DNA of 64,000 nucleotides from assembly GCF_010975035.1 (NCBI RefSeq), contig NZ_JAAIUV010000003.1:124001-188000 (forward strand), in the 5' to 3' direction. Positions 10,664 to 18,866 of the stretch are shown here, piece by piece (the first letter of the stretch is position 1; each line of letters starts with the position of its first letter). The translations under genes and the position numbers were made by a program. The notes under the pieces are model-generated. The model saw only the letters and a list, made by a program, of their open reading frames with translations, was not told where the DNA came from and did not search any database. The DNA comes from Neobacillus thermocopriae (GTDB taxonomy: Bacteria; Bacillota; Bacilli; Bacillales; Cytobacillaceae).

Positions 10664-11683
10664 TCACCCTAAATATCGATGATAGAGCGATTTCGCTTCC
10701 GATACATCCTTCGTTCCATGAATCAATACTCTTCCATCTTTAAAAACAACCATTCGGTATGGATCAACCTGAAAAGACAATAAGAAAGGGTTTCGCTGTA
10801 CGACTCGTCCTTGTTGGATCAATATCGTTTCTAAAGCTTCCAAATCACGGTCAGCAGTTTGAGGAGGACGGATTTGTACGGTATTCCTCCCACATAGGAC
10901 AGCCGTTTTGGTTTGATTTTCAAACGATAAGAATGGGTAGGAACGAGTGGCTCCACAAGAAGGACAATCTTCTTTTTTCAAAGAATCGACGTTAACCGCA
11001 CTAAATTGATTTTTCCAAAGATCAAAGGAAACGAGTTTGCCACGTAATGAATCTAGGTCGCCAACTAAAATTTTCAATGCTTCACTTATTTGATAAGATA
11101 CAACCATGCTTACAGCTGGGGAAATAATGCCAGCTGTATCACAAGTTAACCCCCCAAGTGGAACGGTTTCTAATAAACAGGCGAGACAAGGTGTTTTTTC
11201 AGGGATGAATGTGTAGGATATTCCGTAACTTCCTACACAGGCTCCGTAAATCCAAGGAACACCATATTTTTGTGACACATCGTTGATGATCATTCTTGTT
11301 TCAAAATTATCGGTAGCATCGATGATCAAATCGAACTTACTAGCCCAGGCTTCAAGCTCTTGAACGGAAGCATCTGCAACCATAGCCTCAATTTCCACAG
11401 AGGAGTTAATGGCATGTAAACGATTTTTCGCCGCAATGGCTTTTGGTAGCCGGTTTTTAGCGTCTTCCTCGGAATACAATTGCTGCCGCTGGAGATTGGA
11501 CCATTCTACATAATCGCGATCAACAATCGTTAATCTGCCGATTCCGGCACGGACGAGAGCCTCGGCACTTCCTGATCCAAGAGCGCCGGCTCCAATGATA
11601 AGCACATGACTGGATGAGATCTTTTTTTGTCCATTTTTTCCGATGGGTGAAAATAATTCTTGGCGAGAGTAACGGCTAATCAA
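10664..11683 (-). CDS. thiF: Thiazole biosynthesis adenylyltransferase ThiF (MoeB/E1 family)
   Basis: Activates the C-terminus of ThiS by adenylation so that sulfur can be added for thiazole synthesis. The 339-residue protein has the E1 nucleotide-binding motif [17 protein letters not shown] (residues about 32-48), the acidic NLQRQ segment, DATDNFETR, and two CxxC pairs (CLAC and CPSC) expected to bind zinc. The C-terminal extension of about 80 residues beyond the MoeB core is common in Bacillus ThiF. Its start overlaps the end of thiG by four bases (11680-11683), showing coupling. Last gene of the thi operon. Confidence 0.92.
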
Positions 11684-12447
11684 CCGGTAATCATTCCTTC
11701 TTTTGGACTGCTGGCTGTTGCATAACGTTTTTTCTTCATTCTGCCTGCTTCAAATCCTAAACGACCCGCTTCAATGGCTAATTTCATTGCTTTTGCCATT
11801 TTTACAGGATCCTTTGCAGCAGCAACAGCGGTATTTAATAACACACCGTCGGCCCCTAGTTCCATGGCCAGTGCGGCATCGGCAGGGGAGCCGATTCCTG
11901 CATCGACAATTACCGGAACCTCAGCCTGCTCAATAATAAAGCTTAAGTTGACTGGGTTGATGATTCCTTGACCTGATCCAATTGGAGAAGCTCCCGGCAT
12001 GATGGCGTGGCAGCCGAGTTCTTGAAGTTTCCTGGCTAACACGACATCGTCGGACGTATATGGGAGGACAATAAATCCTTCCTTCACTAATTCTTCTGTG
12101 GCTTTTAGGGTTTCGACTGGATCTGGAAGTAATGTCTTATCACAGCCGATTACTTCGACTTTAATCATATCGCACAAACCGGATGCTTTAGCGAGTTTGG
12201 CGATACGCACGGCTTCTTCAGCTGTTTTTGCTCCCGCTGTATTTGGTAGCAGCGTATATTTTGAGGGTTCAAGCAGTTCTAGAAAATTCGGCTGACTTGG
12301 TTCAAAAATATTCATTCGTCTGACGGCAAAGGTTAAGATTTCTGCTTCAGAGATTTCAACGGCATTTTTTTGGATTTCATAGTTTGGATATTTTCCTGTT
12401 CCAAGTAATAATCGGGATTGAAAAGAATATGGACCAATTTTTAACAT
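11680..12447 (-). CDS. thiG: Thiazole synthase ThiG
   Basis: Condenses dehydroglycine, 1-deoxy-D-xylulose 5-phosphate and the ThiS thiocarboxylate to thiazole phosphate. The 255-residue TIM-barrel protein carries the Schiff-base lysine in DMIKVEVIG (Lys96), the phosphate-binding [14 protein letters not shown] segment and [12 protein letters not shown]. Length and motifs are normal for the family. It sits one base after thiS and overlaps thiF, matching the tight coupling expected of partners in one complex. Confidence 0.95.
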
Positions 12448-12448
12448 A

Positions 12449-12652
12449 TCAACCGCCTCCTACAAAATGAACTATTTCAATTCGATCATTATCTGCTAAT
12501 CTCGTATTCTCGTGTTCTAAACGAGAAAGTATTTTCCCGTTTACTTCTACGACGACGATTTTCTCATGGATGTTATAATGTTTGAGTACATCGGAAACAA
12601 ACGTAATATGTTCCGGTAATTGTACAGATTCACCATTTAATGTAACTTTCAT
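12449..12652 (-). CDS. thiS: Sulfur carrier protein ThiS
   Basis: Small ubiquitin-like protein (67 residues) that carries sulfur as a C-terminal thiocarboxylate. It ends in VGGG; the terminal Gly-Gly is the modified site. Acidic surface residues and the strand pattern [14 protein letters not shown] fit the family. Ribosome binding site GGAGG is directly upstream, overlapping the thiO stop region. Confidence 0.93.
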
Positions 12653-12661
12653 TTTTACCTC

Positions 12662-13771
12662 CTACATTACGGATGGTTGATGTCGATCGAGGCGAAAGGC
12701 TGAAAGCTCAGTCGTATTGCCTTCCAACAAATCGGCTACAAGTTTACCAGTTATCGGACTTAATAAGATTCCGTTGCGGAAATGTCCGGTTGCCACAAAA
12801 ATTCCCTTATATTCAGGGTGCTCACCAATGTATGGTTTTCCATCATTGGTTTGCGGCCGGATACCGCACCACACCCGTTCCCAAGTGGCATCTCTAATTT
12901 CTGGTACGAGCTTCACCGCTCTTTCGATTAATGAGGCTATTCCCCCAGGTGTGACGGCCTTATCAAAAGAATTTTCAATCATCGTCGCTCCAATATATAT
13001 TTCTCCATTTCGCTTTGGAACGAGATAACAGCGCTTATCTGAAAAAATAGTCGTGTTAATGATTGGTTTATTCACTTTCACAGAAAAACACTCGCCTTTT
13101 ACTGGAAACACAGGAAGGTCCTTTATCAGTCGGTTAGCCCAGGCTCCTACTGCAATGACAACTTGGTCACAATGAATGATCCCATTTGAAGTATTTAAGC
13201 CTTTCACTTTGCCTTGATCATAGAGGAAGGAGAGGACCTCTGTATTTTCGCGTATCTCTGCTCCAAAATGGAGGGCAGCTTTCGCAAAGGCTTGCGTTAA
13301 TTTTTCCGGATGTACATGCCCATCATTTGGGAGGTACATGCCTCCAGCTATAGTAGGGGATAACGCTGGTTCCAGTTCCCTAATTTCATGGGAATCGAGC
13401 CATCGAATTTCATGGTCCCACTTCCTTTGAAAGAGGACTTGTTGTTGAACTTCATGTGCGATATCTTCGGTTTCGGCAATTTTCAGCATTCCTTTTTGGA
13501 CGAACTCAATATCAATGCCGGAGTATTCCAATAATTCTTGTGAAAGAGAGGCAAACATCTTTTGGCTTTTTAATGCTAGTTGGAAAAGCGGGCCATCTTG
13601 TTCGATCTCCGCTTGGGCTGCCAGCATTCCGGCTGCGGCACGGGATGATTCAGCGGCTATTTGTTGCTTTTCAAGTAGAATAACTTTTCGTCCTTTTTTG
13701 GCCAGTTCGAAGGCAATGGAGGTCCCATTCACTCCTCCTCCGATAATGGCTGTGTCAAATGATTTTTTCAT
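12662..13771 (-). CDS. thiO: Glycine oxidase ThiO
   Basis: FAD enzyme that oxidises glycine to the imine used by ThiG. The protein starts with the dinucleotide-binding motif IIGGGVNGTSIAFELA and shows the family's C-terminal GHFRNGILLSP motif. The start chosen is the third in-frame ATG (13771), because GGAG lies 9 bases before it; this gives 369 residues, the usual length, while the ATG at 13786 would add five residues without a good binding site. Placement between tenI and thiS follows the Bacillus order. Confidence 0.93.
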   Translation of the reverse strand: MKKSFDTAIIGGGVNGTSIAFELAKKGRKVILLEKQQIAAESSRAAAGMLAAQAEIEQDGPLFQLALKSQKMFASLSQELLEYSGIDIEFVQKGMLKIAETEDIAHEVQQQVLFQRKWDHEIRWLDSHEIRELEPALSPTIAGGMYLPNDGHVHPEKLTQAFAKAALHFGAEIRENTEVLSFLYDQGKVKGLNTSNGIIHCDQVVIAVGAWANRLIKDLPVFPVKGECFSVKVNKPIINTTIFSDKRCYLVPKRNGEIYIGATMIENSFDKAVTPGGIASLIERAVKLVPEIRDATWERVWCGIRPQTNDGKPYIGEHPEYKGIFVATGHFRNGILLSPITGKLVADLLEGNTTELSAFRLDRHQPSVM

Positions 13772-13846
13772 CAATTCCATCTCCATTTTTTCACTAATAA
13801 GAAAGGATTAATTGATACACACCAAGAACTTTCTGATTTATCCATT

Positions 13847-14443
13847 TTACGATTGTTTATGTAAGGCCATTGTATACGCTTTTACGGCATCGAGCGGGTT
13901 GCATGAATCGAAAACTCCTGACATTACCGCAATTCCATCTGCCCCAGCTTGAAGTACTTGCGGAGTGTTTTCTGGTGTGATCCCACCGATGGCAATAACC
14001 GGGATGTTGAGTTGAGACAACTTGGTTAATTCCTCCAGTCCTTTCGGAGGCAGGCCAGGCTTTGATTTGGATGGAAAAACATGGCCGTATAGCAGGAAAT
14101 CTGCCCCCTCTTGATGGGCTTCTTCATAGGAATGGATGGAGGTCCCTACTTTTAGTAGAGGAAAAGCTTTTTTTACATGAACGGCATCTAAACTGTGCCC
14201 AGCTAATTGAACACCGGCCGTTCCTGCTGTAACGGCGACATCCACGCGGTCATTAATGATTATTTTGGAAAGTGGAATGTCTTTTGCTAACTGTTCAACA
14301 GCTTGAAAAAGCTCTTTCGCTGTCTTTTGTTTCTCCCTTAAGTGAATCATGGTGACATAGGGATGTATATCCATTAAAATTTCGTGTAATTGTTCAATTG
14401 GCATTTTGCCATTGGAAATAATATGTAATTCCTTGATGACCAT
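13847..14443 (-). CDS. tenI: Thiazole tautomerase TenI
   Basis: ThiE-like TIM barrel of 198 residues. Motifs IHLREK, NDRVDVA, HS at about residue 115, YGHVFPSKSKPGL, IPVIAIGGI and GADGIAVMSG fit the ThiE/TenI fold; position as first gene of a tenI-thiO-S-G-F operon and the HVF segment favour TenI, which aromatises the ThiG product, over thiamine-phosphate synthase ThiE. TenA, usually upstream in Bacillus subtilis, is absent. The Gs of the ribosome binding site (GGGGGG) nearly touch the ATG, so initiation may be inefficient. Expression is governed by the upstream TPP riboswitch. Confidence 0.85.
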   Translation of the reverse strand: MVIKELHIISNGKMPIEQLHEILMDIHPYVTMIHLREKQKTAKELFQAVEQLAKDIPLSKIIINDRVDVAVTAGTAGVQLAGHSLDAVHVKKAFPLLKVGTSIHSYEEAHQEGADFLLYGHVFPSKSKPGLPPKGLEELTKLSQLNIPVIAIGGITPENTPQVLQAGADGIAVMSGVFDSCNPLDAVKAYTMALHKQS

Positions 14444-14514: not shown

Positions 14515-14530
14515 GAATAATGCATACAAT

Positions 14531-14636
14531 GCTCCCATTCTCCACTTCCCTACGCTGGTATTAACCAGATCAGGTTCATAGAGTCCCGAAGTAACACTTC
14601 GATCTCAGCCTTTTATAAAGGCACCTCTAGCGGATT
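14531..14636 (-). ncRNA. TPP riboswitch (THI element) controlling tenI-thiO-thiS-thiG-thiF
   Basis: The minus strand carries the conserved THI-box parts in order: 5' edge CCGCUAGAGGUGCC, CUGAGA, then ACCUGAUCUGG, UAAUACCAGCGUAGGGAA and the closing GUGG. The P1 stem is CCGCU with AGUGG. Such aptamers bind thiamine pyrophosphate and shut off thiamine genes; here the following terminator makes control transcriptional. Confidence 0.95.
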
Positions 14637-14639
14637 TAT

Positions 14640-15134
14640 TTACCTATTTATTTGTCATAATTCCTACGCTATCCATCGTAACACATTGAATAATGCCTGT
14701 CACTTGTTTCCTTGTTTTTTCTTCCTATTTATCTATTTTACAATGTTTGAATGGTGGTTTATCTCTAATTTTAAACCGCCGCCGTTTGCGTCTTTTGTTT
14801 CTTAGGTATTCTTACCGATTACTATCGTGGGCATTTTGAAAAGCATCGTATGAAATAATATTTTTATTAGCTATATCAAAGGCAATATAATTCAGTTTGA
14901 CATTATAAATTATATTCTTTAAAAAATTCGATTCCTTTTTTGTAAGTGATACATGGTAGTCTTTCTCTGCCACTGTATCCGTGAACCATTTCCGTTATAA
15001 CATTATATTTTTCTGTAAAATCAATTGGTGTTATTATAATTTTTAAAGTTATTTCATTTTAATGGAAAATATGTTAAATTATGTTAGTGTTTTTATATAC
15101 TAATAGAAAGGAAGAATGTACTAGGAAAAAGAAA
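14640..15134. other. AT-rich gap before the bacteriocin-like gene
   Basis: Almost 500 bases without an intact gene. A TGCCTGTCAC copy lies at 14695-14704. On the minus strand from about 15059 to 14903 some 50 codons stay open, with coding-like composition but no plausible start and no recognised family; it may be a relic. The right end holds the promoter of the bacteriocin-like gene; TATACT near 15095-15100 could be its -10 element. Confidence 0.4.
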
Positions 15135-15452
15135 ATGAAACAGTTTATTATCTCGGCGTTGGTAGTTGGCACAATTGGATTAGGTGGAAATACAGTGTTT
15201 GGGGCAACTTTCTGAGATTCAACTAGTGGAGCCTCTTCTGAAGAATCTTTCCAAATTAAATATAATGGTGCCGCCTGGAATTACAGTAAGTCAAAATATC
15301 AATATACTTCGTTTAAATATACACGAGATGGTAGAACTTTACTGAGTAAAACAGCCTATAACGGCAAAGTTACAGGTTCTGTTTGGGACGATTTAAGATG
15401 GGGAGACAAGTATACTACGTATTTTTCTTGGAAGCGTGGACCACTTAAATAA
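15135..15452 (+). pseudogene. Lactococcin-972-like bacteriocin precursor interrupted by TGA
   Basis: The frame from ATG 15135 to TAA 15450 would encode 105 codons with a signal peptide (basic start, hydrophobic core, FGA cleavage site near residue 24), but codon 27 (15213-15215) is TGA. The rest stays open and reads like a small secreted, aromatic-rich, cysteine-free peptide (GAAWNYSKSKY, TAYNGKVTGSVW, YTTYFSWKRG). Its aromatic C-terminus, secretion signal and the bacteriocin-type ABC operon behind it recall lactococcin 972, a cell-wall-targeting peptide. The likeness is weak at residue level, so the family call is inference. The stop could be a real inactivating mutation, a sequencing error or read through. 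Ribosome binding site is poor (AGGAAAAAGAAA). Confidence 0.5.
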
Positions 15453-15545
15453 TTTTTCCGGGTTTGATTTTTTTAAATATTCGCTTAACAAAATTTAATG
15501 AAATATCTATGAGATTTAATTATTAATGAATTATAGGAAATCGTT

Positions 15546-15583
15546 GGGGCCTGATAGGTGTTTTTCTACAGGTCCCGATTTTA
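15546..15583 (+). terminator. Attenuator-like terminator between the peptide gene and its ABC operon
   Basis: GGGGCCTG pairs with CAGGTCCC (one G-U) around a 15-base loop, followed by GATTTTAATT. Placed 95 bases after the peptide gene, it would give more peptide mRNA than transporter mRNA if read-through is partial. Confidence 0.6.
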
Positions 15584-15734: not shown

Positions 15735-16175
15735 ATGAAATATTCTTTATTTAGATTTTTCGACGTTTTTGAGGCGGTTGCTATCTATCTAATCTGTTTT
15801 GCTTCAAACTTACTATGTATTTATGTACAAACGTTGAATTTAGAAGGTTCTTCTATTTTAAAGTCTTTTTTGGAAAGTATTACAGATTATCAACTTATTA
15901 TAAATATTTTTCTTACATTTATTATAATAGTATTTCACTATCAATTTTTAAATCGTAGGAAAACAGAAATATTCTGCCGAATACTTGTAGGAGATACGAT
16001 GGTAAATATTATAATCCGATATATCTTGAATAGTATAGCTATTTTAGTGTTTAGTTTTTTACTCTCACTTTCATTGAACTTCTATTTAGGGCTGAATGTA
16101 ACCAGCAATCTTTACTTAGTTCTTATTTTTATTATATATATACTATTTAGTGCGTGTCAGGTGAAAAAAGAATGA
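15735..16175 (+). CDS. Four-helix membrane protein of bacteriocin-type operon
   Basis: Uncharacterised 146-residue protein, very rich in Ile, Leu and Phe, with about four membrane segments (residues about 12-32, 55-72, 90-110, 120-140) and a small positive loop (NRRKTE). No family recognised by eye; in position it matches the integral membrane or immunity component that goes with lactococcin-972-type clusters. Ribosome binding site AAGGAG is 9 bases upstream. Its stop overlaps the next ATG (ATGA at 16172-16175), so translation is coupled. Codon use and AT content differ from the neighbouring thi genes, suggesting transfer. Confidence 0.65.
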   Translation: MKYSLFRFFDVFEAVAIYLICFASNLLCIYVQTLNLEGSSILKSFLESITDYQLIINIFLTFIIIVFHYQFLNRRKTEIFCRILVGDTMVNIIIRYILNSIAILVFSFLLSLSLNFYLGLNVTSNLYLVLIFIIYILFSACQVKKE

Positions 16176-17392
16176 AAATTTTACATTTTTTTATAACTAG
16201 AATATTTTTAAAAAGATGGACACTTGTTTTGGGTATGATAATATTACTTTTTTTAGCTAATTATCTTTCTTTTACTGCTGCTCGTTCAATTATTTCAACT
16301 TTTCAAGGTTATCAAGAAATAGAAACTCTGAATCAAGAAGGAACTTTTATTGCTAATCTAGACCCAAATAGTGAAGCTGATTTTGATAGAATTGAAATAG
16401 ATGATACAAAAAAAGTATATGAATATTTAAACAAAAATTATACTTATGCTATGCAAGTCGATGGTTTTGTCACTTCATTATATAATAAATATAAGATGGA
16501 AGTTTCTTTCAATTATATCAATGAAGAGGCTTATAAGATAAATCAATTTAGATTATCTCAAGGAAACCACTTAAACTTCAACTATAAATTTAATAAAGAA
16601 GAAATACCTGTTTTAGTAGGTGCAGGTCTGGCCACAACATATCCTGTAGGGTCATATATTGAGATTACAGATCCTGTCACCCAACAATTAGTCAATTTAA
16701 AAGTTCAAGGGGTCTTGGAGAAGAATACTCATCGTTCTAATTTTTATGCTCCTAATTCAAAAAATTATTTCAATTTTTCAATTTTCCTACCTATTAACGA
16801 AGAATTTATTCAAAGTGCAGGTCTTGACCTCCTCGTTAATGGTTTGATGGACATGGTGCTTCTTGATTCGACAAAAGAGAAAGCAACGAATTTAAGTGAA
16901 CTTATCCAGGAAAATCTAGGTTTAAAATTTAACTTTTTTAATCAACAAGAAAATTTTAATTACTTTGAAGATTCTTATTTTGATTCATTAAAAATCATCT
17001 GTATTATCACCTTTATTTTGCTACTAATCATTGTTTGTCTAGCTATCTGGAATACTTTGGTAAGCATTCGTTTAATGATAAAAGATTTTACAATCAATTT
17101 ATTAGTCGGATTAAGTTATTCAAAACTAAGAGCAATTTTTTATAGTTATTTTGGAATATTGTTTTCTATTAATCTAGTCATACTATTTGTGATAACCGCT
17201 TTCAATAGATACGGCTTTTGGTTAAAAAAAGACTCAATATTTGCTACTTACGGAATGTTTGGCTTAATAAGTATGGATTGGATTGCTCTACTTATTGTTC
17301 TTTTTATAGATTTGATTATTGGGTTTACGATTGTTGAACTTACGATAAAAAAAATTAAAAGTATTCCGATTTCCGTGGGGGTGTTAAAATGA
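16172..17392 (+). CDS. MacB/FtsX-like ABC transporter permease, bacteriocin-type
   Basis: Membrane protein of 406 residues. One hydrophobic helix near residues 15-35 is followed by an extracellular region of about 240 residues with few hydrophobic stretches, then three further helices (about 275-295, 320-340, 365-390). That is the layout of MacB/FtsX-type permeases, which drive export or release of substrates from the outer membrane face. The C-terminal PISVGVLK resembles the usual FtsX ending. The ATG at 16172, in the ATGA overlap with the previous gene and preceded by AGGTGA, is preferred to the GTG at 16154. It overlaps the ATPase gene by ATGA at 17389-17392. Confidence 0.75.
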   Translation: MKILHFFITRIFLKRWTLVLGMIILLFLANYLSFTAARSIISTFQGYQEIETLNQEGTFIANLDPNSEADFDRIEIDDTKKVYEYLNKNYTYAMQVDGFVTSLYNKYKMEVSFNYINEEAYKINQFRLSQGNHLNFNYKFNKEEIPVLVGAGLATTYPVGSYIEITDPVTQQLVNLKVQGVLEKNTHRSNFYAPNSKNYFNFSIFLPINEEFIQSAGLDLLVNGLMDMVLLDSTKEKATNLSELIQENLGLKFNFFNQQENFNYFEDSYFDSLKIICIITFILLLIIVCLAIWNTLVSIRLMIKDFTINLLVGLSYSKLRAIFYSYFGILFSINLVILFVITAFNRYGFWLKKDSIFATYGMFGLISMDWIALLIVLFIDLIIGFTIVELTIKKIKSIPISVGVLK

Positions 17393-18051
17393 ATAGTATA
17401 ATTAAACTAGAGATCCAGAAAAAAACATTCAAGAAGAAAGGTTTTTCTATCTTAAATGATTTTAAATTGGAAGTTGAACCTGGGGAAAGACTTTGTATTA
17501 TAGGGGAATCTGGAGTTGGAAAAACTTCTTTGCTTAATATTATTGGTCTACTTGATACACAATATCAAGGGAGCTATAAGCTTTTTGGTTCATCTGTTAA
17601 GGATTTATCACGAAATAAACTAGCTGAGTGGCGTAATCAAAAAATTGGTTTTGTTCTTCAGGAGTCCGCACTAATTAATTCTTTGACCATAGAGGATAAT
17701 ATTAAATTGCCGCTTATGTATGCTAACATTGAAAAAGACCTAACTGTCCAAGATCACTTTAAACGAATTGTTAATAAAATTGGGATTGAGCCCATTTTGA
17801 AAAAAAAACCACTTGATTGTTCTGGTGGCCAACGATCTAGAGCTGCTTTTGCTAGGGCTGTCATTATGAATCCCCAAATAATCTTATCAGATGAACCAAC
17901 TGCGTCTTTAGACTTAGAAAATAAAGAAAAAATTATCAATCTACTTTTTGATATGAATAAAGAATTTAATACTACTGTTATTACAGTGACTCATGATTTA
18001 GATGTAGCCAATCGTCATGAACGAATCATTACTCTCGAAAGGAATGAATAA
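17389..18051 (+). CDS. ABC transporter ATPase, lactococcin-972/MacB type
   Basis: Cytoplasmic ATPase of 220 residues that would energise the preceding permease. Walker A reads GESGVGKTS, Q-loop FVLQESALI, Walker B IILSDEPTASLD and switch histidine VTHDLD. The signature loop is CSGGQRSR in place of the usual LSGGQQQR, a small deviation. It belongs to the LolD/MacB/bacteriocin-export group by these motifs and by length. Start overlaps the permease stop (ATGA) and its own end runs into the small next gene, so all four genes form one tight operon. Confidence 0.85.
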   Translation: MNSIIKLEIQKKTFKKKGFSILNDFKLEVEPGERLCIIGESGVGKTSLLNIIGLLDTQYQGSYKLFGSSVKDLSRNKLAEWRNQKIGFVLQESALINSLTIEDNIKLPLMYANIEKDLTVQDHFKRIVNKIGIEPILKKKPLDCSGGQRSRAAFARAVIMNPQIILSDEPTASLDLENKEKIINLLFDMNKEFNTTVITVTHDLDVANRHERIITLERNE

Positions 18052-18052
18052 A

Positions 18053-18208
18053 ATGGGATTCTATACAATGATCATGTCATTCATACTTGGAATATTCTTC
18101 ACCATTTTTGGTGTTTCTCGTAGAAAACGGAATTTTTTATACAAGTTTTTCATAGTGCTAGGAATCATTCTCATTCTTTTTGCTGTTTATCTAGCAAGGC
18201 CTCATTAA
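18053..18208 (+). CDS. Small two-helix membrane protein at end of bacteriocin-type operon
   Basis: A 51-residue protein with two hydrophobic segments separated by a basic turn (SRRKRNF). The ATG at 18053 has AAGGA 9 bases upstream, inside the end of the ATPase gene; an ATG at 18044 is possible. Size, topology and position last in the operon suggest an immunity-type protein, but that is inference only. No similarity recognised. Confidence 0.5.
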   Translation: MGFYTMIMSFILGIFFTIFGVSRRKRNFLYKFFIVLGIILILFAVYLARPH

Positions 18209-18328: not shown

Positions 18329-18866
18329 GTGATATTTTCTTGGCTCCGATTTGAAGTCTTCTCCTTTAATAAACCTAAAAGTATACCGAATCATCATAAT
18401 TCTGGGGAACTAGTGTCTGATTACTTGTATCCTGCTAAAAAGGGCTATCAGCTATCTACATGGTATAAAACTATGGGTAATCAGGATCTAACAAATTTCA
18501 TTTGTATCTGAAGAAGAGTTAGATATTATTGCTAAAGAATTAGGAGTGGAAACGGTTCTGCCAGAATGGTTAGGGGCCAATCTTCTCATCAAAGGATTCC
18601 CAGAGTTTACGAAACTCACAATGGGCTCACGTCTTCTTTTTCCAAGCGGAGCAGGTTTAATATGTATGGGAGAAAATCAGCCATGTACTTTACCAGGAGA
18701 TGAGATTCAAAAACATTATGTGGAGCATGAGACGCTGTCCACTCGTTTTGTCCGTGCAGGTTATAAAAGGCGCGGGATCGTTTGTGCGGTGGAAAGGCCT
18801 GGGGAAATTCATGAAAATGATGAAGTACAAATTTTGATAAATGATTTTGCCCATCCGATGCAATAG
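18329..18866 (+). pseudogene. Degenerate MOSC-domain protein gene
   Basis: The 3' part (from about 18490 to 18866) encodes a good C-terminal MOSC segment: SEEELDIIAKELG, PEWLGANLLIKG, a GSRLLFPSGA strand, the CTLPG loop and RRGIVCAVERPG. MOSC domains handle sulfur or nitrogen groups near molybdenum cofactor. The upstream part lies in another frame (DYLYP...WYKTMGNQDLTN corresponds to the region before the SEEEL motif in relatives), with a stop at the junction near 18485-18510, and the N-terminus is not recognisable. Frameshift plus loss of the 5' end suggests a dead gene, adjacent to the accessory patch. Confidence 0.6.

Follow-up and report, generated by a model that had tools for sequence, protein, structure and literature searches.

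This locus in Neobacillus thermocopriae raises the question of what a bacteriocin-type system becomes when its small secreted peptide is cut short while the transporter genes behind it appear whole. An earlier note on the DNA had described a bacteriocin-like secreted peptide gene broken just after its signal peptide, and alignment with homologues upheld that description. Within the 64,000-nucleotide stretch that we analysed (the window; features lie on the plus strand unless marked otherwise), the frame that the note read at 15135-15452 translates as reported, with a single internal stop before 15450, a TGA at 15213-15215 (codon 27 of that 105-codon frame). Its start, however, did not hold: alignment of upstream sequences places the true family start at 15123, four codons upstream of the ATG at 15135 and right behind a ribosome-binding region conserved with relatives (15100-15122), which makes the TGA codon 31 of a full family frame of 109 codons (15123-15449) and roughly the fourth codon of the predicted mature region. 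Translated from the internal ATG, the signal peptide region (15135-15212) is MKQFIISALVVGTIGLGGNTVFGATF, with the cleavage site placed by the A-x-A/G motif of relatives.

The family to which this frame belongs was defined by 13 homologues, comprising ten chromosomal loci (two each from Terribacillus, Cytobacillus kochii and Exiguobacterium, and one each from Cerasibacillus, Bacillus pumilus, Pseudalkalibacillus and a Ruminococcus MAG) and three plasmids; weak matches from the first search for relatives (L003-L010) were set aside as chance or remote. A profile built from intact homologues scored the window frame at 181.6 bits in a six-frame scan (E 8.8e-56), and tblastn aligned it at 50-79% identity to all 13 homologues, the alignment running through the stop; the frame is thus what is left of a true gene and did not arise by chance. 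Terribacillus halophilus and B. pumilus GM3FR are among the relatives whose peptide gene is intact. Homologue N-termini carry a basic stretch, a hydrophobic core and an A-x-A/G site, followed by about 80 residues, and were judged by eye from the alignment to be Sec-type signal peptides. Modelled intact peptides fold into a compact domain with five strands, for which pLDDT is about 80-94 from residue 41 onward. The search with these models found no PDB match at E<=0.001 and no Lcn972 structure in the top 50, returning just weak jelly-roll-like matches, and a PDB sequence search with the peptide came back empty. Searches of Pfam, NCBIfam and PDB matched the peptide to no known family, no family model names the peptide a bacteriocin, and the plasmid records annotate it as 'hypothetical protein'.

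Two lesions mark the window copy, which is the sole copy of the peptide gene in the genome. At 15123-15125 the initiation codon has been lost to AGG, where homologues have ATG or TTG; the one exception among them is the second Cytobacillus kochii copy (L029), in which ACG replaces the start (L029:2834-2836) while its sister copy (L018) is intact. At the column of the TGA, the 12 codon-aligned homologues and the copy from Ruminococcus share one sense residue, with no in-frame stop in 13 of 13, and the relatives align at the WNYS and YFSW parts, as the earlier note had anticipated. The window frame retains 45 of the 46 family-invariant columns, the stop being the sole exception, and because all other invariant residues are kept the damage appears to be recent. 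Judged from these alignments, the gene is a young pseudogene whose disabling lesions, the lost start and the in-frame stop, occur together in none of the homologues. Values of pN/pS between the window peptide and its closest relatives ranged from 0.28 to 1.26, compared with a median of 0.34 and a highest value of 1.05 for intact pairs; the top value thus lies just above the highest intact pair, which is no more than suggestive of relaxed selection.

The cassette continues behind the peptide gene with genes for a 146-aa membrane protein (15735-16175), a 406-aa FtsX/MacB-type ABC permease (16172-17392), a 220-aa ABC ATPase (17389-18051) and, last, a 51-aa small membrane protein (18053-18208), joined by overlapping or near-overlapping starts and stops; both small membrane proteins are conserved in the cassette. 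The 146-, 406- and 220-aa genes are intact, in agreement with the earlier description of the downstream transporter genes as whole. This five-gene order is common to Bacillaceae relatives and to plasmids of Enterococcus casseliflavus, Macrococcoides canis and Mammaliicoccus sciuri. The permease matched lolCE weakly (E 3.4e-4), and its model, of low confidence at pLDDT 54, consists of one TM helix, a large outer domain and three TM helices, with a separate ATPase. Foldseek searches with this model returned MacB, a pneumococcal MacB-like transporter (5xu1), LolCDE, BceAB and YbbAP (E 9e-7 to 1e-4, 11-15% identity), so that, on a low-confidence model, the predicted fold is that of the type VII (MacB/LolC/BceB-like) class. 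Between the peptide gene and the transporter genes lies a strong, conserved hairpin followed by ATTTT (15543-15579), folding at -21.2 kcal/mol (z -4.1). No Rfam family matched it; hairpins stand at the corresponding place in L011, L060, L061 and L062, those of the plasmid copies differing in sequence. A hairpin commonly separates a toxin gene from the genes that accompany it, and this one is probably a terminator or attenuator that ends or dampens the transcript.

Loss of the peptide is not confined to the window. Among 24 ATPase-bearing loci, 21 were usable as chromosomal family members; a locus cut by a contig end (L021), one with a broken ATPase and no permease (L032) and an unrelated one (L034) were dropped. 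The peptide gene was present in 9 of the 21, the start-less C. kochii copy among them, and absent from the other 12. Full-length transporter genes (146-147, 406 and 220-221 aa) were found in all 11 of the peptide-less loci that were measured, and the twelfth (L031) aligns along the transporter genes too. Values of pN/pS for these genes were similar with and without the peptide, at 0.41, 0.39 and 0.22 in peptide-less loci vs 0.38, 0.34 and 0.23 in peptide-bearing ones. Three loci preserve peptide remnants: L012 has just the 3' end, L019 just the 5' end, and L015 an inverted piece; together with the window and L029 these make five distinct lesions, indicating at least five independent events. 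In a tree of the transporter genes, whose backbone is weakly supported, presence and absence of the peptide are scattered. Loci without remnants might never have carried the peptide. At the place of the peptide gene, two loci have an HTH_26 regulator (L014:2285-2979, with a DUF2975 gene, and L017:3055-3300), as if the transporter had been put under new control. In Salibacterium salarium (L032:5001-5767), only the broken ATPase and the 51-aa gene are left of the cassette. Our results support the view that loss of the peptide, with the presumed protection genes kept, is a recurrent event among relatives.

By its composition and divergence, the cassette is AT-rich and horizontally spread. Its GC content is 29%, compared with 41% in the left flank and 38% in the right, and its ATPase has a pS of 0.05-0.08 vs Terribacillus and 0.12 vs Cerasibacillus and Pseudalkalibacillus; thiG of the same window, compared with two Terribacillus genomes, gave 0.74-0.78 (the misframed thiG comparisons, L112 and L114, were left out). 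In an even sample of the order, the permease occurred in 7 of 397 genomes, with a clear peptide frame in 4 of the 7, the window's own included. A phage origin was considered and ruled out by the absence of any match among 50,697 phage records, despite one IMG/VR contig (L055) that contains a relative; the remaining viral matches look like an unrelated long protein. The cassette adjoins a thiamine operon (11680-14443, minus strand) with TenI/ThiE-like, glycine oxidase-like, ThiS and ThiG genes, and the TPP riboswitch before it (14530-14638, minus strand). Downstream of the cassette lies a MOSC-domain gene (18329-18866) that is truncated or frameshifted, with an open frame of 124 aa where most congeners have about 190-215 aa; the damage may date from the arrival of the cassette. 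The genome itself measures 3.2 Mb, compared with 4.6-7.1 Mb in nearly all sampled congeners, and genome reduction is a possible reading of this size.

Taken as a whole, we consider it probable (roughly 0.72) that the window holds a horizontally acquired, bacteriocin-type cassette in which a lost start codon and a nonsense codon have newly turned the peptide gene into a pseudogene, whereas a type VII (MacB/Bce-like) ABC transporter with a presumed protective role and its two small membrane partners remain intact. In such a system the intact, beta-rich peptide of about 80 residues would be secreted through the Sec pathway and target nearby Gram-positive bacteria at their envelope. The producer would be protected by the transporter, which would clear the peptide from the outer face of the membrane; this strain, its peptide silenced, would make none and still be resistant. 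Sec export, antibacterial activity, an immunity role and protection as the reason for retaining the transporter are steps that we infer. The earlier note had suggested a toxin turned off with immunity and export functions kept; the first part recurs, as toxin loss beside presumed protection, in the relatives, whereas export fits poorly with the Sec signal and with the class of the permease. MacB/LolC/BceB-like transporters typically handle substrates located at the outer face of the membrane, and the group is often linked to protection or extraction. Because the permease class typically works at that face, and because a peptide with a Sec signal needs no dedicated exporter, protection is the more likely role of the transporter.

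The alternative that survives best, although we regard it as unlikely, is that this is not a bacteriocin system at all: the peptide would be a secreted signal, surface or envelope-stress protein, the Lol/MacB-like transporter would serve something else, and loss of the peptide would be unlinked to immunity. The lack of any matching family for the peptide is compatible with this, as are the many genomes in which the transporter stands by itself, in some cases preceded by a DUF2975 gene and/or an HTH_26 regulator. The gene order, peptide size, signal peptide and beta-rich fold nevertheless fit a bacteriocin with protection genes, and the ATPase closest to the lactococcin 972 group, the carriage on plasmids and the repeated loss of the peptide alone point the same way.

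It is less likely still that the cassette is a true member of the lactococcin 972 family with an export transporter, the membership that had been proposed earlier. The ATPase has its best match in TIGR03608, the family of that group, and the peptides resemble lactococcin 972 in their length and W-rich motifs, in having a signal peptide and, as far as the models go, in a beta fold. Comparison with the family profiles TIGR01653 (NCBIfam) and PF09683 (Pfam) was nevertheless negative, for the window frame at E<=1, for six intact relatives at E<=10, and across the window's own genome (G000) and another genome (G102) that has an intact copy. Profile-profile alignment with six Lcn972 members spans only the signal peptide, and the membrane genes, split in two here, gave no match to the family of single large bacteriocin-associated integral membrane proteins. 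The Sec signal, moreover, leaves an exporter unneeded. From these comparisons the cassette would be said to work like a lactococcin 972 system, with membership unsupported, and 'bacteriocin-like' is the better label.

The lesions themselves bear on the two remaining alternatives, both raised by the earlier note, which had allowed that the TGA might be missequenced or read through; neither idea accommodates a second, independent lesion that removes the start, or a TGA that works as a stop in the operon. We think it quite improbable that a sequencing or assembly error conceals a whole gene and an active cassette. The assembly is a draft of 54 contigs, and the remainder of the frame shows full conservation; yet both lesions are substitutions, about 90 bases apart, each of which would need to be a miscall that happens to disable the gene, and the 327-base gene contains no indel, so that a sequencing slip is unlikely. 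Read-through or recoding of the TGA, with the peptide still made, is the least credible explanation and was rejected, although the frame beyond the TGA is conserved and translation could start at the internal ATG, since no relative has a stop at that column, the homologues' residue there differs from Trp and Cys, the amino acids commonly inserted at TGA, and TGA must be a normal stop here because the 146-aa gene and the permease gene both end in it, inside ATGA overlaps. Weak initiation at that internal ATG is conceivable, the AGG change having put AGGA eight bases 5' of it, and the TGA would still halt the product after 26 codons.

Extending the reading of a silenced peptide beside a retained protection transporter to the relatives, we tentatively propose, at slightly under even odds, that the peptides form a bacteriocin family not yet described, beta-structured and moving horizontally among Bacilli and as far as a Ruminococcus genome, with immunity provided by a type VII ABC transporter in split form; hosts would repeatedly drop the toxin but retain its protection genes, in some cases with a new regulator in charge, giving rise to widespread resistant non-producers. 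If the peptide is antibacterial, it would represent an unclassified bacteriocin family. Intact carriers, a freshly silenced strain, carriers of remnants and transporter-only strains form a natural series across many genera, making the question of producers and resistant non-producers testable with one cassette. That the transporter is kept where the peptide is gone favours protection over export, which also bears on the role of lactococcin 972-like ABC transporters.

Several known systems invite comparison. The BceAB, MacB and LolCDE transporters of type VII share with the cassette their permease topology, as reflected in the Foldseek matches, but the cassette adds small membrane proteins and a link to a secreted peptide. 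Like the cassette described here, those of lactococcin 972 and streptococcin B encode a small secreted, aromatic-rich peptide of beta structure (modelled, in the case of the cassette), followed by a membrane protein and an ABC ATPase. They differ in the peptide, which the lactococcin 972 profiles fail to match here; in the ATPase, which scored 194 bits against a TIGR03608 cut-off of 254.85 although that is its best family; in having one large membrane protein where the cassette has two, of 146 and 406 aa; and in lacking the extra 51-aa membrane gene. The Lcn972 genes orf2-orf3 have been treated as putative immunity genes (PMC4055356); even in lactococcin 972-type loci, the partner genes have roles, transporter immunity included, that are still unproven (PMC11796350). 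Staphylococci carry the ABC gene more often than the complete cluster (PMC11161930). A published parallel to the loss described here comes from pneumococcus, in which the scb locus is incomplete in 27.5% of 571 genomes, and some genomes that have lost the peptide keep the partner genes, retaining scbBC without a functional scbA (PMC11796350). The cassette resembles these orphan immunity loci in having kept protection genes after the toxin gene was gone, and differs from them in that the protection is putative, the cassette moves horizontally, and the pattern extends across many genera through several different lesions.
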